A DNA stretch of 64,000 bases, from NCBI GenBank assembly GCA_020061105.1, contig JAGUYW010000027.1:1-64000 (forward strand). Direction: 5' to 3'. Origin of the DNA: Anaerolineales bacterium. GTDB taxonomy: Bacteria; Chloroflexota; Anaerolineae; Anaerolineales; UBA4823. Position numbers and translations under genes: made by a program. The notes below the pieces were generated by a model that was not told the DNA's origin, did not search any database, and saw only the letters and a list, made by a program, of their open reading frames with translations. Positions 7,185-24,007 of the stretch are shown here, piece by piece. Each line of letters opens with the position of its first letter. Position 1 is the first letter of the stretch.

Positions 7185-7931
7185 TTATTTCTGACTTTCA
7201 GCGGCCATCCTGCACAGGCTGGCGCCTCCAGCATTAAGCCATTCATGCAACCGGTCGCTGTGGGACTGCCCGGCGATAGCATCCTGGTATATCTGCATCC
7301 CCCAGTGAACATAGCGTTTGGTTTCGGCAGGCCAGTTTTCCTCAGGCCTTTGCGAACCGGCAATACCGCCGTTGTATCCTGCCAACGCCAGGCGGACATC
7401 GCCCTGGTGAGTTAGCAATGAACGCTTCAAATACGAGATACCTCTCAAGGCATTGGTTTGCACATCAAAACCATTTTCGCCATCTTTGAAATGGTATGGC
7501 ATCACCTGAAATAAACTCATGGCGCCAGCCCTGGAAAGGGCTTGCTGGTAGCCGCACGACTCGATCTGCATGACAACGGCGATCAGGTTGGCATCAACCT
7601 GGTATTCTTGCGCCCATTGGACGATCTGGTTTTCCCAAAAGCGCACTTCAGGGGTGAACAAGGTTGCCAACTGCCCGGAAGCGCCTGGTTGGTTTGCAGA
7701 AACCTGCTCATCCACCTGGATGGCTGCGTCACCCGGTGCGCTTGCTGGTGGGGCAGCCGCCGCCCAATTGAAAGAGAGCTGGGACGTCAGATCGATAAAT
7801 ACTGCTGCCAGGATCAAGATGATGATTAGTGGGAAAATCATGCTCAAACGCGGAGCGTAGAACACGGCTTGCGGCGCAACTTCATCTTCCTGGTCGTAAG
7901 GGTCGTAATCGTCGTATGTGTACATAGGCAA
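7185..7931 (-). CDS. Membrane-anchored lytic transglycosylase (SLT domain)
   Basis: EYQVDANLIAVVMQIESCGYQQALSRAGAMSLFQVMPYHF...ALAGYNGG; one N-terminal TM. Confidence 0.9.
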   Translation of the reverse strand: MPMYTYDDYDPYDQEDEVAPQAVFYAPRLSMIFPLIIILILAAVFIDLTSQLSFNWAAAAPPASAPGDAAIQVDEQVSANQPGASGQLATLFTPEVRFWENQIVQWAQEYQVDANLIAVVMQIESCGYQQALSRAGAMSLFQVMPYHFKDGENGFDVQTNALRGISYLKRSLLTHQGDVRLALAGYNGGIAGSQRPEENWPAETKRYVHWGMQIYQDAIAGQSHSDRLHEWLNAGGASLCRMAAESQK

Positions 7932-7951
7932 TCCGAAGCGTAAGCGTTCGA

Positions 7952-7980
7952 ATTATAGAACAGATGTTCTTATCTGTCAA
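7952..7980 (-). promoter_or_regulatory. Second sigma70-type promoter with GAAC-N4-GTTC palindrome in the spacer
   Basis: Minus strand reads TTGACA-gataagaacatctgttc-TATAAT (17-bp spacer); palindrome GAACAGATGTTC at 7958-7969. Confidence 0.8.
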
Positions 7981-8335
7981 GTTCCCCTACCAGGTGAAAA
8001 TGTAATTGCCCCACTTCCTGATACTCCCCTCCATTGATAATTAAACGATAACCGCTTTTTTCCAAGTCAAACTGCTGCACTAAAGTTCGCACACAATCCA
8101 ATAGGTCATGGAAGAAGGCTTGCGAAAAAGCCTCGCCGGGCTGCAAATCGAGCAGGCTGGGAACGGCTTGCTTGGGGACGATCAGGATATGCAAGGGATA
8201 GGCTGGCTGGGGGTGCATGAAAGCCATCAATGCGCCAGTTTCATACAAACGTTTCACGGGGATGGCAAAGCTCATGTGAGCAAATATCCAACCGGTCAGA
8301 ATGCGTCCAAGCGAAGAGCGAGCCAGCCGAAGCAT
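7970..8335 (-). CDS. HIT-family protein
   Basis: AYPLHILIVPKQAVPSLLDL ... EVGQLHFHLVGEL (HIT-type HxHxx). Confidence 0.85.
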   Translation of the reverse strand: MLRLARSSLGRILTGWIFAHMSFAIPVKRLYETGALMAFMHPQPAYPLHILIVPKQAVPSLLDLQPGEAFSQAFFHDLLDCVRTLVQQFDLEKSGYRLIINGGEYQEVGQLHFHLVGELDR

Positions 8336-10818: not shown

Positions 10819-11041
10819 CGGTTTTTCTCCTGTTGGTAAGATAGAGTCTGGAAATCCCCGCCGCGCAGTGGTTGGGCGTGGGAAATGATTGTTTCAACCT
10901 GATTAATATACCACTGATTTGGCGGGGTGGGCTTAAGGGTGGATAAAAGTTCGGATTAGGATTTGGTTCACATTTCACGAGAAAAAATATTCTATCGTAT
11001 AATAAACAAACCATCCCTTGCAGAGATGAGTATTATTAAAT

Positions 11042-13735
11042 ATGCCCCTCAACGAAGCTGATACCCGCGCCCAATTGATCGATCTGCAGCTCAACCGCGC
11101 CGGTTGGACGCGCAGCCAGGTAACCCGCGAACATTATTATCGCCCGGATTGGCAATACACGCCTGGTCGGGTAGTTTTACGCGGTGGGCGCGCCGAGCGC
11201 GAGAAGCCGCGAGTAATGGATTACTTGCTGCGTTACACAGACAGCTTTCCGATTGCAGTTGTGGAGGCCAAAGCAGAAGATCTGCCCGCCGTCGCAGGCC
11301 TGGAGCAGGCAAAACGTTACGCCCTTGAAAACAACCTGCTGTTCGCTTACACTGCCAACGGGCATGACATCATCGAGTGGGATGGCTTCAGCAATACCAC
11401 GCGTGACCTAACAGAGTTTCCATCCCCTGAAGCATTATGGGAACGTTGGCGATTGAACACCGGCATCGACAATCCAGCGCAGGTCAGCAGGCAGGTAGGC
11501 GAACTGCGTCCCGTTTATAATGCTGCGGTTGCCGCTGCCCGCCACCGCAATCCCTTGCTGCATCCCTATGCCCCGCCCGAGAAGACGCGCGGCAGCACGC
11601 CACGCTATTTTCAGGAAGCCGCCATCCGTGAAACGCTGGTGCGGGCGATGCGCGGGCAAAAACGCATTTTGTTGACTATGGCAACCGGTACGGGCAAAAC
11701 CTTTACTGCCATGCAAATTGTGTGGAAATTGGTCAAGTCTGAGTGGCTGTACCAGCAAAAAGGACGCGTTGGGCGAGTTTTGTTCCTGGCGGATCGAGTC
11801 GTGCTGCGCGACCAGGCCTATAACGCCTTCGGCGCATTTGCCAGCAGCCGCGGCGATCCACGTTTTATGCTGGATGGCAGGCGCAAGCTCAGTTTGCAGC
11901 ACGATTTATACTTCGGCATCTACCAGACTCTGTGGGGCGAAGTCACCGGCGGCAAACAGCTTTTCGAGCAGTTTCCGCCCGATTTCTTCGATGTGATCAT
12001 CATCGATGAAGCCCATCGCTCTGGCTTCGGTACCTGGAAAGAGATCCTGGATTATTTCACCAGCGCCATCCACCTGGGCATGACCGCCACACCCAAGCAA
12101 GACGAGAACGTGGATACCTATGCCTATTTCTGCGCCGAAGAGACTGCCATTCAGCTCGACCCAGAAAACCCCAGCAAAGGTATGATTCGCCGCTCCGCCT
12201 ATTCCTACAGCCTTGGGCAGGGCATCGAAGATGGTTTCTTGGCTACCTATAAAGTCCATCGCGTGCGCACAAACCTGGACAAGGAGGGCCTGCACATTTC
12301 GCAGGTGATCGAACAGGGCGCAGAGGTGCTTGTGCCGGAAGAAAAAGACCTGCGTGAGGATTATTACACCCCGCAGTTCGAGCGCGAGATCCGCGTGCCC
12401 GATCGCACCCAAACCATTGTCAAACATCTGGCTAAGCTGCTGCGGCAGTTTGGCTCGATGCAGAAGACTATGGTCTTCTGTGTGGATATGGAACACGCCC
12501 AGGAAGTAGCGCGTTTGCTGAATAACGAATTTGCCGCTTTGGGCCTGGGCGAAGATTACGCCGTGCCCATCGTCAGCGAAGAAGGCGAGCAAGGCCGGCG
12601 CTGGCTGGCTAACTTCCAGGACAGCGACCGTAAGCTGCCCGTGGTGGCTACTACCGCCGAACTGCTCTCTACCGGTGTGGATGTGCCCTCCTGCCGCAAT
12701 ATCGTCTTCATGAAGACGCTTTCCTCTCCAATCCTCTTCAAGCAGATCATCGGGCGCGGCAGCCGCATCGACCCGGCTACCGGCAAGCTGTGGTTCCGCA
12801 TCATCGATTACACCAACGCCACCCGCCTGCTCGACCCGGCCTGGGATCGCCCGCCCGGCCCATCGGCTGCGCCGCCTCCCGAAGGACAAACCGCGGCAGT
12901 AGAAGGCACGATTCGCTTAGCCGAAACAGGCGATGTGCTGCAAGGCGCAAATGTCGCTGTAATCGCTGCTCCCAACGATCAGCGCGGCCCAATTCTGAGC
13001 GATGAGAATGGCTTTTACCGCTTCGAGAACTTGCCGGTTGGCGAAGTGAGCGTGATCGCCTCTGGCCCCAGGCTGAACCGCCGCCAGAAGCAGGTTGTCA
13101 CAATCCCCAACCAGACTGTGACCTTAGATGTGGAACTCTCCCTGGCGCAAGCTGGCGCGAACCAGACCATCACGATCAAGAACTTACAGGTCACCATTGC
13201 CGAAGAAGCCACCTTTCTGGTAGCCGGGTTGGAAGAACCGCTGACTCTGGAGCAATACGTGGATTATTCACGCGAGAAAGTGCTGGCGCTGATCCCTGGT
13301 TGGGAACAACTCGTGCATACCTGGCAGGACGAAGCCCAACGCCAGGCAACGCGCCAGAAGTTGGAACAGGCCAGCGTGCACCCCGAAGTGTTGGCTGAAG
13401 TGTTGAATGTGGGCGATGCTGATCCTTTTGATGTGCTGGCCTACCTGGCATTCCGGCGAGAACCAGTTCCGACCCGCAACGAGCGCGCCGCGCAGTTTAT
13501 CGACAGAGAAACCGCCTGGCTTCAGGCCTTTGCCCCTGAACAGCGCGCTGTGGTGGAAGCCCTGCTTGAAAAATACCGCCTGAGCGGTGTGGATGAAATC
13601 ACCAATCCCAGAATCTTTCGCCTGCCACCCTTCAAAGCTATGGGCGAACTGCACGGCGTAGTGCAGCGCTTTGGCAACGCAGATGCCTTGCGCCAGACCC
13701 TTCAAGAAGTACAACAGAGACTGTATCGAGTATGA
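11042..13735 (+). CDS. hsdR: Type I restriction endonuclease R subunit (EcoEI-like) with inserted CarboxypepD_reg-like domain
   Basis: Nuclease region (IAVVEAKAEDL), helicase motifs (MATGTGKTFTAMQ, IIDEAHRSG, GMTATP, IGRGSR); insert VEGTIRLAETGDVLQGANVAV...DENGFYRFENLPVGEVSV. Confidence 0.95.
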   Translation: MPLNEADTRAQLIDLQLNRAGWTRSQVTREHYYRPDWQYTPGRVVLRGGRAEREKPRVMDYLLRYTDSFPIAVVEAKAEDLPAVAGLEQAKRYALENNLLFAYTANGHDIIEWDGFSNTTRDLTEFPSPEALWERWRLNTGIDNPAQVSRQVGELRPVYNAAVAAARHRNPLLHPYAPPEKTRGSTPRYFQEAAIRETLVRAMRGQKRILLTMATGTGKTFTAMQIVWKLVKSEWLYQQKGRVGRVLFLADRVVLRDQAYNAFGAFASSRGDPRFMLDGRRKLSLQHDLYFGIYQTLWGEVTGGKQLFEQFPPDFFDVIIIDEAHRSGFGTWKEILDYFTSAIHLGMTATPKQDENVDTYAYFCAEETAIQLDPENPSKGMIRRSAYSYSLGQGIEDGFLATYKVHRVRTNLDKEGLHISQVIEQGAEVLVPEEKDLREDYYTPQFEREIRVPDRTQTIVKHLAKLLRQFGSMQKTMVFCVDMEHAQEVARLLNNEFAALGLGEDYAVPIVSEEGEQGRRWLANFQDSDRKLPVVATTAELLSTGVDVPSCRNIVFMKTLSSPILFKQIIGRGSRIDPATGKLWFRIIDYTNATRLLDPAWDRPPGPSAAPPPEGQTAAVEGTIRLAETGDVLQGANVAVIAAPNDQRGPILSDENGFYRFENLPVGEVSVIASGPRLNRRQKQVVTIPNQTVTLDVELSLAQAGANQTITIKNLQVTIAEEATFLVAGLEEPLTLEQYVDYSREKVLALIPGWEQLVHTWQDEAQRQATRQKLEQASVHPEVLAEVLNVGDADPFDVLAYLAFRREPVPTRNERAAQFIDRETAWLQAFAPEQRAVVEALLEKYRLSGVDEITNPRIFRLPPFKAMGELHGVVQRFGNADALRQTLQEVQQRLYRV

Positions 13736-15468
13736 GTTTACCAAACGGACGCCTGAACGAAAACCTCAGCAGTGAGATGTGGCGCGCCTGCGATATTATG
13801 CGCCGCGACAATAACGTAGGCGGGGTGATGCAGTACACCGAACACCTGGCCTGGCTGCTCTTCCTTAAGTTCTTAGACCTGGAAGAGAAAAAACGCGCTG
13901 AAGAAGCTGCCTTCAAGAAAGAGGTCTACACCCCCGTCTTGCAGGGCGACCTGGCCTGGGATGCCTGGGCTGGTCCCAAAGCCCTGGAGAAGTGGAATTC
14001 CGATAAGAGCGAACTGGTGGCTTTCGTGCGCGGCCGCCTGCTGCCCGGCCTGGCCAACCTGAACGGCCCACCGCTGGCGCATACCATTGCAAAAATGTTC
14101 TCCGATGAAAGCGTGGGCGACCAAACCGTGGTGCGCAACATGCCGGTGTGCGCCTCCGATTACAACCTGAAGCAGGTGATCCAGATCATCAACCAGATCC
14201 GCTTCGAGCGCGAAGAGGATTTCTTCACCATCACCCGCTTCTACGAAGACCTGCTGGCGCGCATGGGCTCGGAAAACCAGATCGCCGGCGAGTTCCACAC
14301 GCCGCGTTCGATTATCCGCTTTATGGTTGATGTAATCGCCCCGCAAATTGGCGAGACGGTTTTCGATCCTGCCTGCGGTTCAGCCGGATTCCTGGCCCAG
14401 GCCTATTTATATATGCAAAAGCAGGTGCAGGCCCTGGAAGATGAGGAAACTCTCCAGCAGCGGACTTTTTACGGGCAGGAGAAAAAGGGCCTGGCAGCCC
14501 TGTTGGGCACCATGAACCTGGCGCTGCACGGCGTCACTTCGCCCAACATCACGCGCGCCAACACCCTGGAAGAGGATGTCAAAGCCGGCGTGGCGCAGCG
14601 CTACGATATCGTGCTGACCAACCCGCCCTTTGGCGGCAAGGAAGGCGCGCATATCCAAAATAATTTTAACATCAAGAACAACGCCACCGAACTGCTCTTC
14701 TTGCAATACATCCTGAAGAAGCTCAAGCACACGCCCAATGCCCGCGCCGCAGTCGTTGTCCCGGAGGGCACGCTCTTCCGCGGCGGGGCCTTTGCCCAGG
14801 TCAAGCAAATCCTGCTGGATGATTTTCACCTCTTTGCTGTAGTCAGCCTGCCGCCCGGCGCGTTTGCGCCTTACTCGGATGTCAAAACTGCCCTGCTATT
14901 TTTCCAGCGCATCGAGCATACCATGGAACATAACCCGGCGGTGCGCGACGAAACCTGGTATTACGAAATGCCGCTGCCCGAAGGGCTGAAGAAGTTCAGC
15001 AAGGGCAGCCCGATCGCTGACGAGCATTTCGGTGAAGCGCGCGCCATGTGGGAACAGTGGCACACTTACTTGAGCGGAGCAGGCGAGCGCCCCTTCCAGT
15101 ATGCGCAGGATATTCGCGAGAGTTGGCGAGCCTATTGGGATTGGGAACCCTACCACCGTTTGAAAGAATTGCTCAAGAAAGCAACGCCGCCTGAAGAACC
15201 ATCCCCAGAGCAAAGCCTCACCTACCATCAGGCTTGGAAAATGCAAGGCCCGCTTCCAGAACCGCCCTATAGTACCTGGATCGAACTCCTGAGCGATCTA
15301 GTAGCCCATAGCCTTGATCTGAGTGCCCGCAATCCCAACCAGGATGAACGCGAAACTTTACCTCATCCCATCGAAATCACTACCCGCCTCATAGAACGAA
15401 CGCGCGAATTCCAGAGCATTTTAGAGCATGTGCACAATTTGGTAAGTAATGGGGAGGATGAATGGTGA
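13732..15468 (+). CDS. hsdM: Type I restriction-modification N6-adenine methyltransferase (M subunit)
   Basis: EFHTPRSIIRFMVDVIAPQIGETVFDPACGSAGFLAQA ... DIVLTNPPFGGKEG; ATGA overlap with hsdR. Confidence 0.95.
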   Translation: MSLPNGRLNENLSSEMWRACDIMRRDNNVGGVMQYTEHLAWLLFLKFLDLEEKKRAEEAAFKKEVYTPVLQGDLAWDAWAGPKALEKWNSDKSELVAFVRGRLLPGLANLNGPPLAHTIAKMFSDESVGDQTVVRNMPVCASDYNLKQVIQIINQIRFEREEDFFTITRFYEDLLARMGSENQIAGEFHTPRSIIRFMVDVIAPQIGETVFDPACGSAGFLAQAYLYMQKQVQALEDEETLQQRTFYGQEKKGLAALLGTMNLALHGVTSPNITRANTLEEDVKAGVAQRYDIVLTNPPFGGKEGAHIQNNFNIKNNATELLFLQYILKKLKHTPNARAAVVVPEGTLFRGGAFAQVKQILLDDFHLFAVVSLPPGAFAPYSDVKTALLFFQRIEHTMEHNPAVRDETWYYEMPLPEGLKKFSKGSPIADEHFGEARAMWEQWHTYLSGAGERPFQYAQDIRESWRAYWDWEPYHRLKELLKKATPPEEPSPEQSLTYHQAWKMQGPLPEPPYSTWIELLSDLVAHSLDLSARNPNQDERETLPHPIEITTRLIERTREFQSILEHVHNLVSNGEDEW

Positions 15469-16688
15469 TGGCTAAGTGGAGTTTACCGGAAGGTTGGGAA
15501 TGGTTGCCTGTTTCGACCATAGCTTGTGATACAGATCGGCGGAACCCTAAATTCACTTCCGAAGAATATTTTGATTATATCGATATTGGCTCAATAGATA
15601 ATCAAACAGGCCAGATAATTGCTGAATCAGTAAAAAGAATTAAAGGTGCAGATGCTCCAAGTCGAGCACGAAAAGTGATCCACACTGGAGACATAATTTT
15701 TGCAACTACTCGTCCTTATTTGCGCAATATCGCTTTAGTTCCCAAAAACTACCACAATCAAATATGTTCAACTGGTTTCTGTGTTTTAAGAGCAAATGAA
15801 GAAAGAGTGGTTCCACAATACTTATATAACGCAACACGTTCCACGTTTTTCATCGACCAACTTATCCCAAAACAACGAGGTGCAAGTTACCCGGCAGTTG
15901 TTGATACTGATGTTTTTGCAACCGAATTTCCCATTCCTTACCCAGATGATCCAGAGCACTCACTAGCAGAACAGCGCCGTATCATTGCCCGGATCCAAGC
16001 GCTATCTGCCGAATTGATGGAAATGCAAGAACTAAAGAGACAGATAATAAACGACACGGAAAATTTACTTGAGGCAACTGTCACGAATGTTTATAACCAA
16101 TTAGGAAAAGTTTATCAGGTAGTGTCTTTAGGCGATAATAATGTGTGTCAGATAATACCTGGTCAGCATATAATGGCAAGAGATTATTCGGAATCGCCAG
16201 TGGGCATCCCATATATCACTGGACCATCAGATTTTGGAGACAAATATGCACAAATATCAAAATGGACCACAAACCCGAAAGCTTTTTGCCAACCTGGTGA
16301 TATTTTATTTACGGTAAAGGGATCTGGTGTGGGGAAAACCAATTTTGCACCCCAAAATTCAAATTGCTGCATAAGTCGACAAATTATGGCCTTGCGCCCC
16401 AACCCACAGAATTTGCTTTCTGATTATTTGTTCTACAATTTATCAGGACGTTTTAGAGAATTTCAATCCCTTAGGCAAGGCGCCGCTATTCCAGGAATAC
16501 GAAAAGAGCATGTCGAAGCTATTGAAATACCCCTGCCTCCGTGTGAGGTGCAAAAGAACATAATTGCTAACTTAGAAAAAATTTACTCAGAGATTTCGGA
16601 AATGAGAACTATAAATGAGAAAGATCGGGAATTGCTTGATCAAATGGGCAAAGCTATTTTAACAAAAGCATTCCAAGGGGAATTGTAA
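15462..16688 (+). CDS. hsdS: Type I restriction specificity (S) subunit
   Basis: Two TRD halves with central and C-terminal conserved helices (LAEQRRIIARIQALSAELMEMQELKRQI; PLPPCEVQKNIIANLEKIYSEI). Confidence 0.93.
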   Translation: MVMAKWSLPEGWEWLPVSTIACDTDRRNPKFTSEEYFDYIDIGSIDNQTGQIIAESVKRIKGADAPSRARKVIHTGDIIFATTRPYLRNIALVPKNYHNQICSTGFCVLRANEERVVPQYLYNATRSTFFIDQLIPKQRGASYPAVVDTDVFATEFPIPYPDDPEHSLAEQRRIIARIQALSAELMEMQELKRQIINDTENLLEATVTNVYNQLGKVYQVVSLGDNNVCQIIPGQHIMARDYSESPVGIPYITGPSDFGDKYAQISKWTTNPKAFCQPGDILFTVKGSGVGKTNFAPQNSNCCISRQIMALRPNPQNLLSDYLFYNLSGRFREFQSLRQGAAIPGIRKEHVEAIEIPLPPCEVQKNIIANLEKIYSEISEMRTINEKDRELLDQMGKAILTKAFQGEL

Positions 16689-19178
16689 ATGAGCGCCGCG
16701 GGGCAATTTCTACGCAGAGTTAGAACTAATTTTGAACGACACGCTATTCTTTTTGAACCACAGATTGTAGAATATCTGGCTTTTTTGCTTCTACAGCACG
16801 ATCAGTGGAGCCTTCTTGATGATGCTGGTTTCAATGATTTTGTTAGAATGCTTGAAACCAGTTATCGTGAATATCAAATTGCCTATCCGAGATTACGAAT
16901 TCCATCGATATTTCCAGTAGATCACTTTACCCCTGACGAAATTCGGGAGCTATTATATCTCTTAGCACAAGCGATACAGATTCCTTTTTACGAAAACAAC
17001 TTAGGTAAATTTTTCCAACGTGAAATTCGTTGGGAAATGCTGAAGAGCAGCACCGATTCTCAGTATCCTACTCCTTATCATATTGCCGCCTTCATGGCTA
17101 AGTTAGGTGTTACTAGTTCTGATGCCAAAGTTCTCGATCCTACAATGGGTTCAGCAGGGTTACTCATAGCTGCTTTATCTGAAGCGCCTGATGCCACCCT
17201 GGTTGGAGCAGATTTTGATCCGTTATGGGCTGCAATCGGCAGCACGAATCTAATCTTGCATGGCAAAGAAGATGCGGCCGTCTTCGTTGGTTCGTGCCTG
17301 GAGAAATTTTCTCGAGATGCAGTTGATTTGCCAGACTTAGATCATTGGAATGGCCTGTTCGACACCGTTTTGATGAATCCACCTTTTGGCGGCGCTCGCA
17401 GCCCCTATGAAGTTGAAGAAGCGATTGGGGCAGAGTTCGGGCGTAACAATGCCACAGTGATGGGAGGGCTGGCCCTGCAAGCCTTAGCCCCTGGCGGTCG
17501 TGCTATTTTCCTGACCCCCAGCGGCACGCTCTTTGCCAGCAGAGGCGCGGAAGTTAACCTGAAAACAGCCATGTTGAATGAATCTCTAGAATCCATCGTT
17601 ACCTTGCCTAAACAGGCTTTCTATCCTTTCAGCAACACCGAAGCGCATTTAGTGGTTGTCCGCAAACGGGCGGAAAACGAAGCCAATCCAGCGAACCCAA
17701 TCTGGTTTTGCAAGGTTGAGGCTGATGGCTACCCCGAAGGAGCCGGAAGAGATCTAACAACGCCATCCAATGCTCATACGGATGAGCTACCCCGTGTTCA
17801 GGAGCTAATCTTGAACACGCGCCAGCCAGATGCCTGGCATACACAGCTAAATCTGGATAGGGTAGGGAGTGTTCAAACTACAAGTTTAGCGCCAGATGGG
17901 TTATCAGGTTTGGGATTGCGCATGACAGAAGATGTGCAAAAACCCAAATGGGAGATTCTGGCTCTTGCCAACCGGAGCCTGATAAAAATCAGAGACCAGG
18001 CAAAGCGACTACAAGGCTGGCTTTCCATTGAATATCCTCACGGAGAAACCGTTGCCCTGACCAGTGGCCAGGTAGATGCGCACAACTTTACTATTTTGCT
18101 TGCTCAAGAAGATTGGGTTGAAGAATTTGTTGGGAATTGGAAAAACGAAGTTCCCGAAAGCAGCCTTCAGGTGCAGGCAGATCAAGAGCTACAATTTATC
18201 CTCAAGCAAAAGCAGACAGAGTATCGCTTTTCACAACAAGACGAACACACAGAAATGGCCTGTGTATTGGGAGACGATGGTCAGCCCAAACTTCCTTGGC
18301 TGCATCTTATGGACGTAAAGAAAATTCGTGATGAAGAGTTCGGTCAACGCTTTGCAGCAACTCCACTATATGATGCCGGCGAAACCCAGTTTGGCTGGTT
18401 GCTAGATTTCTCTCAAACTCAAGCCGACGATGATGATGAACCACAAAATATTAAGTTGCTAATCGTTTTTCAAGATCAGATCGAGTTATTTGAAAACAAT
18501 GATGTAATTTATGGTTTTACCTACAACGGCTATTTCCAAATTCGGGATGGCGCATTTCTTGCTGAACAAGGTCAGCCTATTCGCCTTCAACAGGATACGG
18601 TAGGTTTTGCCATTGGGCCAAACGCTGGATCAAGCTTCGGACAGCGCGTATTTGCAACACTGTTGTCACGTTCTGCTATAGTAGCTAACGAGAATCTACA
18701 ACCTGCCCGCTTTCTACCGGAACCCGAAGCGCCTCCACTGGAACATCCAGCCAGCGTGATTGCAAAGATTCGAAAAAACCAAAATAAACTTAGCAATAGG
18801 ATCGACACGATACTGGGTATTTTGGGAAATACATCTAAGCAAACACCAGACCGCGATCAGGCATATCCCATTCCAGATTGGATTATCGAGATGTTGGATG
18901 AGCAGCAAAAAGCACTCTGGCAAGCTATCGCCGCCAGGCAAGTTGATGCACGTCCAGCCCATTTCAATACCAAAGATTTACTGGCCTGGAAAGCTGAACT
19001 AGGAGAAGGTGTATCTTACAGTGACGCCGATGCTTTGATGCAGTTGGAACTTTTCACGCGCCTGGGGCTGATAATGAAAGTACGTAATCAGGGAGAAAAT
19101 CTTTATCGTTGTCTGACCAATCAAGATGTGCTCAAACCACAACTAGCAAATCCGGAAGAAGAACATGAAGCTGCTTAG
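16689..19178 (+). CDS. Second N6-adenine DNA methyltransferase, 829 aa with long C-terminal extension
   Basis: SAM motif VLDPTMGSAGLLIAAL; catalytic NPPFGG; starts on the base after the hsdS stop codon. Confidence 0.85.
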   Translation: MSAAGQFLRRVRTNFERHAILFEPQIVEYLAFLLLQHDQWSLLDDAGFNDFVRMLETSYREYQIAYPRLRIPSIFPVDHFTPDEIRELLYLLAQAIQIPFYENNLGKFFQREIRWEMLKSSTDSQYPTPYHIAAFMAKLGVTSSDAKVLDPTMGSAGLLIAALSEAPDATLVGADFDPLWAAIGSTNLILHGKEDAAVFVGSCLEKFSRDAVDLPDLDHWNGLFDTVLMNPPFGGARSPYEVEEAIGAEFGRNNATVMGGLALQALAPGGRAIFLTPSGTLFASRGAEVNLKTAMLNESLESIVTLPKQAFYPFSNTEAHLVVVRKRAENEANPANPIWFCKVEADGYPEGAGRDLTTPSNAHTDELPRVQELILNTRQPDAWHTQLNLDRVGSVQTTSLAPDGLSGLGLRMTEDVQKPKWEILALANRSLIKIRDQAKRLQGWLSIEYPHGETVALTSGQVDAHNFTILLAQEDWVEEFVGNWKNEVPESSLQVQADQELQFILKQKQTEYRFSQQDEHTEMACVLGDDGQPKLPWLHLMDVKKIRDEEFGQRFAATPLYDAGETQFGWLLDFSQTQADDDDEPQNIKLLIVFQDQIELFENNDVIYGFTYNGYFQIRDGAFLAEQGQPIRLQQDTVGFAIGPNAGSSFGQRVFATLLSRSAIVANENLQPARFLPEPEAPPLEHPASVIAKIRKNQNKLSNRIDTILGILGNTSKQTPDRDQAYPIPDWIIEMLDEQQKALWQAIAARQVDARPAHFNTKDLLAWKAELGEGVSYSDADALMQLELFTRLGLIMKVRNQGENLYRCLTNQDVLKPQLANPEEEHEAA

Positions 19179-20745
19179 TTTTCGCATCGGCCAATATCGT
19201 GTACTTCGAGATATTCATATTTCCTTTGATCGCAAAAGCAGAGAAGAAATACTCAACCCTGAACAAAACTATGCTTTGGACTTCCTGGCTGGCGTCAATG
19301 GCACAGGCAAAACTACCGTTTTGCAAGTGCTGGTAAAACTACTTTCTACACTACAAACAGAAAACTACGGCTTCCCTATCCCAGTAGAATTAACGTATTC
19401 AACTACTGATCCATCCGGAAAAGATCAAACGATCAAAGTAACCAATCTTGACCTGGATGATGGTCGCCAGAGAAAACAACTTGTTCATAGTGTAAACGGA
19501 GGCGATGAAAAGGCCGAAAAAATCCGGCCAGAAAATCTGCCAGCACAAGTTGTGGTTTATACCACAGGAAGTGAGACAGCCTGGCAAAGAGAGCTAGGGT
19601 CTAGTGAAAGATTACCAGAAGATTCAATCGGGACATATAACGAAGCCAAAGAGGATCAACGGTATCTAACTGAGCTTCCTGGGCACCAGCCCTCTGAGCT
19701 TTCGGATGATGAAATCAATAACCGTGACCCCAACCGCAATATTCTCTTTGTCTATGAAGAACGCTTTCCTTTAGTAACTTTATGTGGGTTGCTGGCTTCC
19801 ATAAAAGATAAATTGGATGCGCAAAAACAGAACCAAATACTTCAACCCGTATTGGATTCGATTGAACTGGAAGATTTGAGCAGCTTTTCATTGCGCCTCC
19901 GCCAACACCGCGATTTGACGCCTGCTGTACAGGCTGAAATTATCGCAAAGTTACAAACTGTTGCCGACCAGATCATTCAAGCAGGCGCAGACCGGCTTTT
20001 GATTTTCGATATTGAACGTCAACTTGCTGCATTCCAACAGGATCCACAAACTTCCATTTTAGGCTTATATGCCACCCCAATCCAACTCTTCCAGCACCTT
20101 AATTTGCTTTATGAGCATCGCCCGTTTTACGATGCACCTGTTCAAAAAGTGAACGTTTTTTTGCGCAAGAAAGCCCCTGCCCAACCTGGACATCCTATCG
20201 AGCAGGCACCCCAACGCACCATGCTGCACCTGTTGGATTGGCTCAGTGATGGTGAACGCAGTTTTTTGGGACGTATGGCGCTATTTGCGCTATTCCGGGC
20301 AGACAATTTACTCATCATCCTCGATGAACCCGAGGTGCACTTCAATGATGTTTGGAAGCGTGAAATTGTCCATATGCTGGATCAAATCATGCAAGGCTGC
20401 GCCAGCCACGCCATTATCTCTACCCATTCCAGCATTGCTTTAACCGATGTGAGCAAAGACGACATTCTGGTATTTCGGCGTTTGGGTAACTATGTTGAAG
20501 GTGAAAATGCCATTAGATCTCCTGAAATTCAAACATTAGGAGCTGATCCCAGCGATATTATGGTACAAGTTTTTGGGACGAAGTTTGCAAGTGGGGCACA
20601 CAGCGTCAGTTACATTCGTAAGAAAATTGCTGAATCAGAATCACGCCAGGATTTAGAAGATTTCCAAAAAACCATAGCTCCGGGATACTGGTATTACAGA
20701 GTGCAGCTAGAAATCGATCAATTTGGCGAGCAAAGGCTACAATGA
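19165..20745 (+). CDS. AAA/ABC-type ATPase of the restriction locus (SMC/OLD/PtuA-like)
   Basis: Walker A GVNGTGKTTVLQ; signature LSDGERSF; Walker B LLIILDEPEVHF; H-loop IISTHSS; overlaps the upstream gene by 14 nt. Confidence 0.88.
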   Translation: MKLLSFRIGQYRVLRDIHISFDRKSREEILNPEQNYALDFLAGVNGTGKTTVLQVLVKLLSTLQTENYGFPIPVELTYSTTDPSGKDQTIKVTNLDLDDGRQRKQLVHSVNGGDEKAEKIRPENLPAQVVVYTTGSETAWQRELGSSERLPEDSIGTYNEAKEDQRYLTELPGHQPSELSDDEINNRDPNRNILFVYEERFPLVTLCGLLASIKDKLDAQKQNQILQPVLDSIELEDLSSFSLRLRQHRDLTPAVQAEIIAKLQTVADQIIQAGADRLLIFDIERQLAAFQQDPQTSILGLYATPIQLFQHLNLLYEHRPFYDAPVQKVNVFLRKKAPAQPGHPIEQAPQRTMLHLLDWLSDGERSFLGRMALFALFRADNLLIILDEPEVHFNDVWKREIVHMLDQIMQGCASHAIISTHSSIALTDVSKDDILVFRRLGNYVEGENAIRSPEIQTLGADPSDIMVQVFGTKFASGAHSVSYIRKKIAESESRQDLEDFQKTIAPGYWYYRVQLEIDQFGEQRLQ

Positions 20746-22010
20746 TCCATCAGGTTAGTAAGCTCAAAGATGCCAATCGCATCTTACCATATGTTATGGT
20801 GCTGCAAATTGCCGTACTAGAAGCAGCAGCGCAGGAACATATCACGCCAGAGACGATCCTGGATTTGCGTGTTTTTGTCCCGATCTTGGAAGACCATCTA
20901 AATACAAAAAGATGTTTCCGGGATAGAAGTGAAATCATCGCCAGGTGGATTATGACTGGCAAAAAAGATATTCGAAAATCATTGGTTGAGCCGCTAAGCA
21001 GATTTGCAAATACTCCTGTAGCTGAGAGAATACGTTTTATCGATGCAATTCGAGACGATATTTTGTTGCTTTATCATCCAAGAGATGCAGAATTCAAAGT
21101 GGCTATTCTGAGGAATGAAGCGGGGGATTGGAAAAAAGGCGCTCGGGATTTCTTGTACGAATTTTATGATTTATGGCAAACAGGGTTTCCAGGCTACATC
21201 TTCCCAAGATCCAGACAGAAGTACGCTCGCCAAGATTTTGTCCAGGAATTCGAAAAGTGCAATCCAGATCTGTTCATTTGCGCAGTTTGTGATGGAGCAG
21301 CCTACACCACCAAAACGGCTGGGCACGTCTATACTAGTGTAGATCACTTTTTCCCACGCTCGATTTATCCTCATCTTTCCTGCCACCCTCTAAATCTTGT
21401 TCCCATTTGTTCATGTTGCAACAGTTTCATCAAGGGTGATAACGACCCCATGATCTTAGATGATCGACCGCTACAACTTATTGATTTGATTCTCCCCTAT
21501 CAAGGATCAGATAATGCTCTACGCCAAAAAGCGTATATCGCCGTGGTAAAGAGAAACCCGAGACACCCCAAACCCGAACACCCCATGCAATTAGAACTAA
21601 AGCCAGCGCGTGATTTCGATGCCGGTAATAAAATTGCTGCCTTCAATAAATTGTACGATGTTAACGGACGGTGGAATGCAAGTTTGGATGAAATCGAAGA
21701 TCATGTCTTTCGACGTCTCACCCAGTATTTAGCAATAATCGATTCAGCCAACCTGGCATCTGATCCTGACGCGCTTATCCGTCTCCTGAAAACATTGATG
21801 GCGCAAACCGACCTGGAAAACATGGGGAAAGATTCATTTGCTTTTCCAATGGTTTGGTTACTCAAAAGTTATATTGATCAAGTTGAAAACCAAAGAGAAA
21901 ATGCCCCCATACTGAAGGCACTTACAGATTGGGCAAAGCACAATAGTCAACGATGCAAATTGTTAGAAGTACATTCAGAAGTCATCAAGCAACGAGTACC
22001 TGATGATTAA
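20742..22010 (+). CDS. HNH endonuclease domain protein
   Basis: CAVCDG...VDHFFPRSIYPHLSCHPLNLVPICSCCNSFIKGD; ATGA overlap with the ATPase gene. Confidence 0.85.
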   Translation: MIHQVSKLKDANRILPYVMVLQIAVLEAAAQEHITPETILDLRVFVPILEDHLNTKRCFRDRSEIIARWIMTGKKDIRKSLVEPLSRFANTPVAERIRFIDAIRDDILLLYHPRDAEFKVAILRNEAGDWKKGARDFLYEFYDLWQTGFPGYIFPRSRQKYARQDFVQEFEKCNPDLFICAVCDGAAYTTKTAGHVYTSVDHFFPRSIYPHLSCHPLNLVPICSCCNSFIKGDNDPMILDDRPLQLIDLILPYQGSDNALRQKAYIAVVKRNPRHPKPEHPMQLELKPARDFDAGNKIAAFNKLYDVNGRWNASLDEIEDHVFRRLTQYLAIIDSANLASDPDALIRLLKTLMAQTDLENMGKDSFAFPMVWLLKSYIDQVENQRENAPILKALTDWAKHNSQRCKLLEVHSEVIKQRVPDD

Positions 22011-22034
22011 GAAATGGAGGCCGGGAGGAATAAA

Positions 22035-23063
22035 ATGCAATTCAAAGATGCTGCGTATGAAATTCTAAAGAAAGCCGGCCAGCCCCTTCACTATAGAGAG
22101 ATCGCGTCCCGAGCACAGGCCACCGGGATGCTGGAGACCACCGGGCTAACCCCCGAAGCCACGATGGGGGCGCAATTATATACCGATACTCTAAACCCCG
22201 ACTCGCGCTTTCGCCGCGGCGATCAACGGGGAACATTTTTGTTGAAAAGCGCAGCCTCTGGCAGCATCCAACAGCAAATTGAAAATATTCATTCTCAGGT
22301 TCGAAAAGATTTGCGTAAACAACTGCTGCAAATGCCGCCGCAGAAATTTGAAGAACTGATCCGCTTGCTTTTGGAGCAGATGGGTTTTGAAGAGACGGAA
22401 ACCACTCCCTATAGCAACGATAAAGGTGTGGATGTGCGCGGCGTACTGCGCTCCAATCCGCTTAGTGTGGTTAGGGTAGCCATCCAGGCCAAGCGCTGGA
22501 CGAAAAACGTGGGCTCGGGCGTCGTGCGTGATTTGCGGGGTTCGCTCAAAATAGCCGATTCTGAACAAGGTTTGATCATCACTCCCAGCGATTTTTCCAC
22601 TAGCGCAATCGAGGAGGCTCAGTCCGTAGGAAAAACACCGATCCAGCTAATCAAAGGGGATCAGTTGGTTGATTTGCTCATTCGTCACAATGTTGGCGTG
22701 AAGCAGGAGCAGTATACGGTTCCGTCTATCGATACCGAATACTGGACGGAAGTTTTGGGGATTTCTCTGCTTGAAGTAGAACCACCACCGGTCAAAATTA
22801 GCAAATCTAAGCGTGCAACAACATTAGGGGTTACTTTCCCGTTGACAATCCAGGCCAGTTATAAAAATCAAAGTATCATAGCCCAACTGATGAATTTGAA
22901 TGGGCTGGTGCTGTGGAACAATCAGGAATTTGCCACGCCTTCCAGCGCTGCCAAAGCCGTGGCCTCAGATTGGAAAGCTGTCAATGGCTGGGATTTCTGG
23001 CGCTACCAGGACCCAGAAACAGGGGAATGGGAAAAGATCGGGAAACTAAGAAAAAGGAAATGA
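22035..23063 (+). CDS. Mrr-type restriction endonuclease with N-terminal HARE-HTH and C-terminal RAMA/DUF4357-like domain
   Basis: HARE-HTH: MQFKDAAYEILKKAGQPLHYREIASRA...GDQRGTFLL; Mrr: FEELIRLLLEQMGFEETETTPYSNDKGVDVRG...RVAIQAKRW; C-term: LNGLVLWNNQEFATPSSAAKAVASDWKAVNGWDFWRYQD. RBS GGGAGGA precedes 22035. Confidence 0.85.
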   Translation: MQFKDAAYEILKKAGQPLHYREIASRAQATGMLETTGLTPEATMGAQLYTDTLNPDSRFRRGDQRGTFLLKSAASGSIQQQIENIHSQVRKDLRKQLLQMPPQKFEELIRLLLEQMGFEETETTPYSNDKGVDVRGVLRSNPLSVVRVAIQAKRWTKNVGSGVVRDLRGSLKIADSEQGLIITPSDFSTSAIEEAQSVGKTPIQLIKGDQLVDLLIRHNVGVKQEQYTVPSIDTEYWTEVLGISLLEVEPPPVKISKSKRATTLGVTFPLTIQASYKNQSIIAQLMNLNGLVLWNNQEFATPSSAAKAVASDWKAVNGWDFWRYQDPETGEWEKIGKLRKRK

Positions 23064-24007
23064 TGAATCGAGGGAAAATGGCTATTTCACGCTTACAAAA
23101 AGTTCAGTTACGAGAATTATGGGCGCATGAAGCTCACGGATTTACAAAGTGGTTGGCTGAAAATATAGATTTTCTGGGTGAGGCTTTGAACCTTGAATTG
23201 ACTTTGATCGAACGCGAAGCCGCAGCTGGACCTTTCACGGCTGATATTCTGGCTGAAGACTCGGATGGTAACTACGTCATCATCGAAAACCAGTTAGAAC
23301 AAACAGATCACGATCACCTGGGGAAGTTGATTACATATTTGAGCAACTTAGAGGCCAAAAAAGCTGTTTGGATTACCAGGGCTCCAAGACCTGAACATGA
23401 AAAGGCAATCCACTGGCTTAACGAAGTGATTCCGGCAGACACCGCTTTTTATCTCATCAAGTTAGAAGCATATCGAATTGATCAATCTGCTCCTGCGCCT
23501 CTGTTGTCAATTGTCGCTGGCCCGAGCACAGAAAGTAAACGGGTAGGCATCCAAAAGAAAGAACTGGCTGAACGCCATATCCTACGTTTGGAGTTTTGGA
23601 AAGGGCTTTTGGAACGAGCTAAGACGATCGCACCCAGCCTTGCCAATCGTACACCAAGTAAAGACAATTGGATCTCAGTGGGTGCTGGAAAAAGCGGCTT
23701 TAGCTACAGCTATGTGATCCGCATGGAAGATGCCCATATCGAGTTGTATATTGATGTGGGTGAAGCTGATAGAAATAAACAGTTGTTTGATACTCTCGCA
23801 ACGAATAAAGATGATATTCAAAGAGCTTTTGGCAAACCCCTTGAATGGCAGCGATTGGATGAAAAGCGCGGTTGCCGAATCCGGCATGTTTTTTCCAGTT
23901 CTGGTTTGAGTAATCAAGAAAGATGGCCTGAGCTCCAGCAACATATGTTGGAAACGATGGTATCTTTCCAAAGGGTGTTCAGGGAAGAATTGAACAAGTT
24001 GAGGTAG
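23060..24007 (+). CDS. DUF4268 protein with PD-(D/E)XK-like N-terminal domain
   Basis: FTADILAEDSDGNYVIIENQLEQTDHDHLGKLITY (D...ExQ); C-term typical of DUF4268; ATGATGA start overlaps the upstream stop. Confidence 0.78.
   Translation: MMNRGKMAISRLQKVQLRELWAHEAHGFTKWLAENIDFLGEALNLELTLIEREAAAGPFTADILAEDSDGNYVIIENQLEQTDHDHLGKLITYLSNLEAKKAVWITRAPRPEHEKAIHWLNEVIPADTAFYLIKLEAYRIDQSAPAPLLSIVAGPSTESKRVGIQKKELAERHILRLEFWKGLLERAKTIAPSLANRTPSKDNWISVGAGKSGFSYSYVIRMEDAHIELYIDVGEADRNKQLFDTLATNKDDIQRAFGKPLEWQRLDEKRGCRIRHVFSSSGLSNQERWPELQQHMLETMVSFQRVFREELNKLR

Follow-up and report, generated by a model that had tools for sequence, protein, structure and literature searches.

How does a second HsdM-like methylase come to lie between a type I restriction-modification (RM) system and a Septu-like ATPase-nuclease pair, and what might it do there? 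This question is raised by a locus of an Anaerolineales bacterium (assembly GCA_020061105.1, contig JAGUYW010000027.1), of which positions 1 to 64,000, a stretch of 64,000 nt, were analyzed (here called the window). A preliminary description, made from the sequence alone, had singled out three genes (the trio): an 829-aa N6-methyltransferase regarded as an orphan (M2, the second HsdM-like methylase, open reading frame 16689-19178), an ATPase and an HNH nuclease. The trio is real and linked, but incomplete as a unit, as it is the 3′ half of a six-gene co-directional operon, hsdR-hsdM-hsdS-M2-ATPase-HNH, which begins at 11042 on the + strand and in which hsdR-hsdM-hsdS run continuously into the trio. 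Orphan status can be ruled out for M2, which sequence and model comparisons identify as an HsdM paralogue inside an RM operon. The genes are tightly packed: the hsdS stop (16688) and the M2 start (16689) are adjoining bases and, as described before, the reading frames overlap by 14 nt between M2 and the ATPase (19165-19178) and by 4 nt between the ATPase and the HNH gene (20742-20745). Across genomes, the evidence supports M2 and the ATPase-HNH pair as one evolutionary unit, and sequence comparison indicates that this unit behaves as a swappable effector cassette.

The upstream genes co-encode HsdR, HsdM and HsdS and so constitute a type I RM system. HsdR scores 660 bits against NF046051 (EcoAI family), above the cut-off of 550, and contains ResIII and EcoEI_R_C domains, with a CarboxypepD_reg insert between the helicase and the C-terminal domain. 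In HsdM, the motifs DPACGSAG and NPPF are both intact. M2 likewise has an N6 methyltransferase core (N6_Mtase match at residues 121-350, E=3.5e-22), which together with an HsdM C-terminal segment places it as an HsdM paralogue; the solved chains closest to it belong to HsdM proteins, with both PacII M subunits (7vru) among them. The C-terminal half (~450 aa), in which no domain had been recognized, indeed gives no match in Pfam, but two elements could be assigned to it. Residues 658-722 align with the HsdM C-terminal segment (HHalign E=1.2e-5 over 61 columns, compared with 0.19 or worse in 30 column shuffles and 0.39 in the reversed control); the same tail gave no match to HsdS. Residues 724-812 are predicted to fold as a winged helix, with an AlphaFold pLDDT of about 70-87 compared with 44 across the whole C-terminal half, and the best Foldseek matches are the DNA-binding domains of Fur and TubR (probability 1.0, E 0.017-0.05). 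The middle stretch (residues ~400-650) has a pLDDT below 50. There was no sign in this half of a target-recognition domain (TRD), for which the preliminary description had suggested a fold search; the tail consists of the HsdM segment and the winged helix. Long N6 methylases (814-850 aa) are encoded at loci L041, L044-L046, L048, L051 and L052, with cores that outscore ordinary HsdM against the M2 profile, and an HsdR-like gene adjoins such methylases in L069 and L070; by sequence, these proteins are a possible source family of M2.

The motifs previously quoted for the downstream pair are all present, comprising Walker A GVNGTGKTT, signature LSDGERSF, LLIILDEPEVHF and the H-loop THSS in the ATPase, and CAVCD...VDHFFPRS...HPLNLVPICSCCN in the HNH protein. 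None of the seven M2-linked operons has lost any of the four ATPase motifs (Walker A, signature, Walker B and H-loop) or the HNH motifs, not even those with a degenerate M2. Their presence is not a matter of chance, because they are invariant in seven divergent homologues of each protein; the HNH residues and four zinc-type cysteines are invariant in 10 homologues of the nuclease. Sequence and fold support a PtuA/PtuB-like pair, in agreement with the Septu logic proposed for it. For the ATPase, the best PADLOC models are PtuA (1.1e-26) and the best PDB matches are PtuA of retron Ec78 and of Septu, with AriA of PARIS lower down. It therefore qualifies as a PtuA-family ABC/SMC ATPase in the Septu sense, although it stays under the equivalog cut-off of NCBIfam PtuA (63 bits, cut-off 500). 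It also matches TIGR04435, a family of restriction system-associated AAA ATPases (E 4.8e-30), at 104.8 bits, which is under the cut-off of 300 and thus short of family membership. The HNH protein has no match in Pfam or NCBIfam. The four best PDB folds for its AlphaFold model (pLDDT 84.8) are all PtuB, at modest Foldseek scores (E 0.014-0.42; probabilities 1.00, 1.00, 0.97 and 0.20), and PADLOC gives a PtuB match of 1e-6, with the candidate families PDC-M62B/M01B scoring better.

Three further genomes of the phylum have the six genes in this order: G168 (L005), G166 (L024/L067) and G110 (L006/L072); the contig of G110 corresponds to the Herpetosiphon aurantiacus DSM 785 plasmid pHAU02 (Chloroflexota; genes Haur_5278-5273). 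G346 (L023) and G124 (L030) have hsdM-hsdS-M2-ATPase-HNH without hsdR at the locus, and G641 (L081, 6370-10051) has M2-ATPase-HNH, with a transposase gene (7420-8322) splitting M2 and transposase-like genes upstream. Close to the G346 operon (L023, 11245-16040), the opposite strand seems to carry a different type I set, whose HsdR-like protein has 1101 aa. M2 thus stands beside the ATPase and HNH genes in each of the seven Chloroflexota genomes that bear it, in six of them also with hsdM-hsdS, so that independent occurrence of M2 and the ATPase in most genomes is not seen and the linkage first noticed in the window holds. G168 and G110 were retrieved by a search with the M2 C-terminus that was blind to neighboring genes, and G641 by an M2-tail profile. 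Contig scans with M2 and with an ATPase alignment gave no useful relatives, the two weak ATPase matches (L033 and L034) belonging to unrelated operons. The wider ATPase family, as found with TIGR04435, is present in 14 of 400 genomes, including five with type I RM genes without M2 and three without a recognized RM set; cassettes of this family on Pantoea and Sphingobium plasmids have RM genes only and no M2. In the ATPase tree, the M2-linked members group together in a single clade (98/98, in 99% of bootstraps), and the HNH tree gives the same grouping for six of the seven.

Conservation and base composition both change within the operon. Among the M2 operons, HsdR and HsdM are 43-75% identical, compared with 25-40% for HsdS, M2, ATPase and HNH, and GC in the window drops at the hsdM/hsdS boundary, from 0.57 (hsdR) and 0.56 (hsdM) to 0.40-0.47 (hsdS to HNH). 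Such a pattern would be expected of a stable backbone whose downstream cassette is exchangeable or evolves fast. Over 15400-24000, GC is ~0.44, down from 0.57 earlier in the operon. The step from hsdM to the genes behind it also shows a mosaic origin, which would fit an ordinary defence island, where restriction, Septu-like and Mrr-like genes would lie together functionally uncoupled; defence genes do cluster generally, and Mrr-like and DUF4268 defence genes are found directly downstream here. However, the order is fixed with near-zero spacing across proteins of 25-40% identity, an HsdM-derived M2 is restricted to the ATPase-HNH pair, and such genes occur at none of 20 control type I loci, and we hold uncoupled clustering to be improbable.

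The slot behind hsdS is not reserved for M2 and PtuAB. In G216 (L094, 8215-11341) and G104 (L095, 8453-12175), Gabija genes gajA and gajB lie directly behind hsdR-hsdM-hsdS (GajA/GajB matches E 1e-142 / 8e-121 and 3e-178 / 8e-115, respectively). These operons have hsdS and no M2, and their R and M proteins are close to those of the window (63-68% over the HsdR insert region). Gabija was probably acquired separately in the two, because the best GajA models differ. On one hsdR-hsdM backbone, the slot is therefore occupied by M2-PtuAB in four genomes and by Gabija in two. The HsdR insert region is itself rare, being present in 6 of 350 genomes of the phylum, and all six operons (the four M2 and two Gabija operons) carry an ATPase-nuclease module. 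By comparison, 20 ordinary hsdM loci of the phylum (~10 kb on each side where the contig allows, not lineage-matched) had no PtuA-, GajA- or GajB-like gene in phmmer searches at E 1e-4, with a query set that recovers every known ATPase in leave-one-out runs and does not recover GajB in such runs.

Because the Gabija-bearing R-M-S operons lack M2, M2 is tied to PtuAB rather than to the modification core. This bears on a reading in which M2 would join HsdM and HsdS in a heteromeric M1-M2-S modification enzyme as in PacII, with PtuAB an independent Septu system riding along. Type I enzymes of this composition exist (PMC9613975), and M2 both matches the two PacII M chains and keeps the HsdM tail. 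Yet a closely similar R-M-S set does without M2 in both Gabija operons, two M2 proteins have lost the catalytic motif and PacII M2 carries NPPY rather than NPPF, and we hold this explanation to be improbable.

The catalytic motifs also inform on the role of methylation. Motif I, for binding S-adenosylmethionine (SAM), is kept in every intact M2, and motif IV is an intact NPPF in all four HsdR-bearing operons. G346 and G124 both have APSF instead, and the G641 copy, which is broken by an insertion sequence (IS), has NPAF. M2 degeneration thus accompanies HsdR absence in three of three cases, compared with none of the four HsdR-bearing operons; this link is suggestive only, as two of the three are sister lineages and the third is IS-broken. 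Because G346 and G124 are sisters in the tree, the loss of NPPF represents one or two events, not three. In G346, HsdM is degenerate too (HPPL instead of NPPF), and neither methylase would be expected to methylate. Judging from these motifs, M2 catalysis is dispensable in some operons.

These losses limit the hypothesis of a methylation-licensed effector advanced in the preliminary description, according to which M2 with HsdS would mark host DNA and the ATPase-HNH pair would cut unmarked DNA. Such licensing is possible where NPPF is intact, and the retention of NPPF and motif I in the HsdR-bearing operons, as well as the fact that M2 was never found apart from the pair, would fit it. Strict licensing is not general, because the M2 motif is lost in two HsdR-less operons (in one of them together with that of HsdM) while the ATPase and HNH motifs there are intact, even if this may be a single event. 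We regard licensing as unlikely, if less so than the two alternatives above.

PrrC and PARIS exemplify the guarding of bacterial restriction enzymes by suicide nucleases, a logic demonstrated in PrrC/EcoprrI and proposed in PARIS, and by analogy we see an even chance that the cassette does the same, with an ATPase-nuclease that would be held by the restriction complex via M2 and freed upon inhibition of restriction. From the gene content, order, homology and linkage observed, we infer docking, silencing, trigger and target as follows. A first layer would be formed by an ordinary type I enzyme (HsdR, HsdM and HsdS), and a second by the swappable cassette of M2, PtuA-like ATPase and PtuB-like HNH protein. 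M2 would be an HsdM-derived adaptor with two retained parts, the fold that binds SAM and the C-terminal segment of HsdM, and with a winged helix as an addition. In type I enzymes, the HsdM C-terminal segment packs against HsdS. Because an S-M four-helix bundle belongs to the assembly of the type I enzyme (PMC9613975), M2 may dock on HsdS via its HsdM-like tail, so that the ATPase-HNH toxin would be anchored to HsdM/HsdS on the DNA and kept silent. If a phage inhibited the restriction complex, titrated it away or blocked M2's view of the DNA or SAM state, the ATPase would be freed, and the HNH nuclease would cut tRNA or DNA, resulting in abortive infection.

There are precedents for such a scheme. 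PrrC is silenced by its linked type I enzyme and freed by the T4 peptide Stp (PMC2610378, PMC3506569), and in a 2025 review PrrC and PARIS are grouped as guardians able to sense the inhibition of RM (PMC12707154). PtuAB of Retron-Eco7 is a toxin that depletes tRNA-Tyr and that its reverse transcriptase (RT)-msDNA partner neutralizes (PMC11555353). Upon infection, tRNA-Tyr is also cut by a Septu PtuAB (PMC13096335), and another Septu has been reported to act on DNA (as cited in PMC11555353). Taken together, these findings would most simply mean that PtuA/PtuB-like toxins are held by differing sensor modules, here a type I complex via M2.

Several observations weigh against a guard function, including the lack of lineage matching among the control loci. 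Two intact operons have no HsdR, so restriction is not always present to be guarded, and the NPPF kept in four M2 proteins suggests that real methylation matters there. For some Septu PtuAB systems, action on DNA and defence without partners have been reported. Gabija, too, works as a system of its own, so that its occupancy of the slot need not mean a coupling to restriction. The guard mechanism as a whole is drawn from sequence and structure comparison and from analogy. More tentatively still, type I RM may be a platform with a plug-in slot, whose hsdR-hsdM backbone (with the CarboxypepD-type insert in HsdR) takes differing ATPase-nuclease effectors behind hsdS, the PtuAB plug-in bringing its own HsdM-derived winged-helix adaptor. 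The HsdR-less lineage would then be a surveillance complex that no longer restricts, in one case is unable to methylate and has the HNH pair as its only nuclease.

Table 1. Features of the operon and its surroundings (positions in the window)
Feature	Position	Strand	Remarks
Promoter-like site 5′ of hsdR	10974-11003	+	TTCACG-18-TATAAT, 10/12 consensus positions
hsdR	11042-13735	+	897 aa; type I restriction subunit, EcoAI type
CarboxypepD_reg beta-sandwich insert in HsdR	12899-13138	+	aa 620-699; PF13620 E=4e-13
hsdM	13732-15468	+	modification subunit; N6_Mtase E=4e-52, HsdM_N
hsdS	15462-16688	+	specificity subunit, two TRDs; Methylase_S, two stretches
M2	16689-19178	+	HsdM paralogue (predicted) with extended C-terminus; N6_Mtase
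M2 motif I (SAM binding), DPTMGSAG	17136-17159	+	
M2 motif IV (catalytic), NPPF	17376-17387	+	
M2 tail, homologous to HsdM C-terminal segment	18660-18854	+	HHalign
M2 C-terminal winged helix (predicted)	18858-19124	+	AlphaFold and Foldseek
PtuA-like ABC/SMC-type ATPase	19165-20745	+	526 aa; PADLOC, TIGR04435 and PDB matches
PtuB-like HNH nuclease	20742-22010	+	422 aa; AlphaFold model, PDB fold matches
HARE-HTH/Mrr_cat/RAMA nuclease gene	22014-23063	+	3 nt past the HNH gene
DUF4268 protein gene	about 23054-24007	+	PADLOC candidate PDC-S11, E=1.8e-120

The Mrr-like and DUF4268 genes are downstream defence cargo outside the conserved unit, and no match to them was found beside the module in L005, L006, L023, L024 or L030. 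The promoter-like site before hsdR, a consensus match, is suggestive only; it is among the three best of its interval, in a scan that gave 21 sites compared with 15.1 expected in shuffles.

Compared with known systems, the window operon shares parts with several of them. As in Septu, an ABC/SMC-type ATPase gene is followed by an overlapping HNH gene. The window HNH protein is 422 aa long, whereas the solved PtuB chains that it matches have 205-234 aa, and rather than standing alone as two genes, the pair is linked to type I RM and M2 (M2 in 7/7 genomes, hsdM-hsdS in 6/7). In retron Ec78/Eco7 (type I-A, Septu type II), an RT gene lies next to ptuAB; no RT is found among the eight window operon proteins and no msr-msd RNA was among the Rfam matches, of which tRNA-Trp was the only one, so a retron was rejected. 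MADS (methylation-associated defence system) likewise has methylase, ATPase and HsdS-like components, and was rejected on matches far under the cut-offs for MAD2 (33.8/720 bits), MAD3 (26.8/420) and MAD5 (58/400). PacII-type M1M2S enzymes have two differing HsdM-like proteins and one HsdS, as in the window, but the PacII M2, with NPPY, is a subunit of the modification core, whereas window-type M2 has NPPF, APSF or NPAF and a predicted winged helix and moves with the effector. In G216 and G104, Gabija takes the place of the cassette on the shared backbone; its proteins are different and there is no M2.

Similar in layout are the TIGR04435 cassettes, with genes for an ATPase and an HNH-like protein behind type I R-M-S; these lack M2, and the window ATPase scores below the family cut-off and falls into a separate clade. 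This family shows that the broad association of RM with such ATPases was already noticed by NCBIfam curators. The open-licence literature held no paper on the six-gene unit or on TIGR04435 function, which is weak evidence as it covers open-licence papers only. New here are M2 as a predicted HsdM-derived member of an effector cassette, its putative pseudo-enzyme forms and the exchange of PtuAB and Gabija on one backbone. As in EcoprrI with PrrC, ATPase-nuclease genes form part of a type I RM operon in the window; PrrC consists of one HEPN-type protein, whereas ATPase and HNH are separate here with an HsdM paralogue alongside, and silencing would be by analogy. The window ATPase also matches AriA of PARIS, another restriction guardian. 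If the guard reading is true, a PtuAB-type effector would join PrrC and PARIS as restriction guards, and M2, its pseudo-enzyme forms included, would to our knowledge be the first adaptor dedicated to linking such a guard effector to a restriction complex. With PtuAB and Gabija cassettes exchangeable on one backbone, it would become directly testable whether immunity and abortive infection are coupled in a modular way, and the deposited strain Herpetosiphon aurantiacus DSM 785 (Haur_5278-5273) offers for this an operon of the same design as that of the window.

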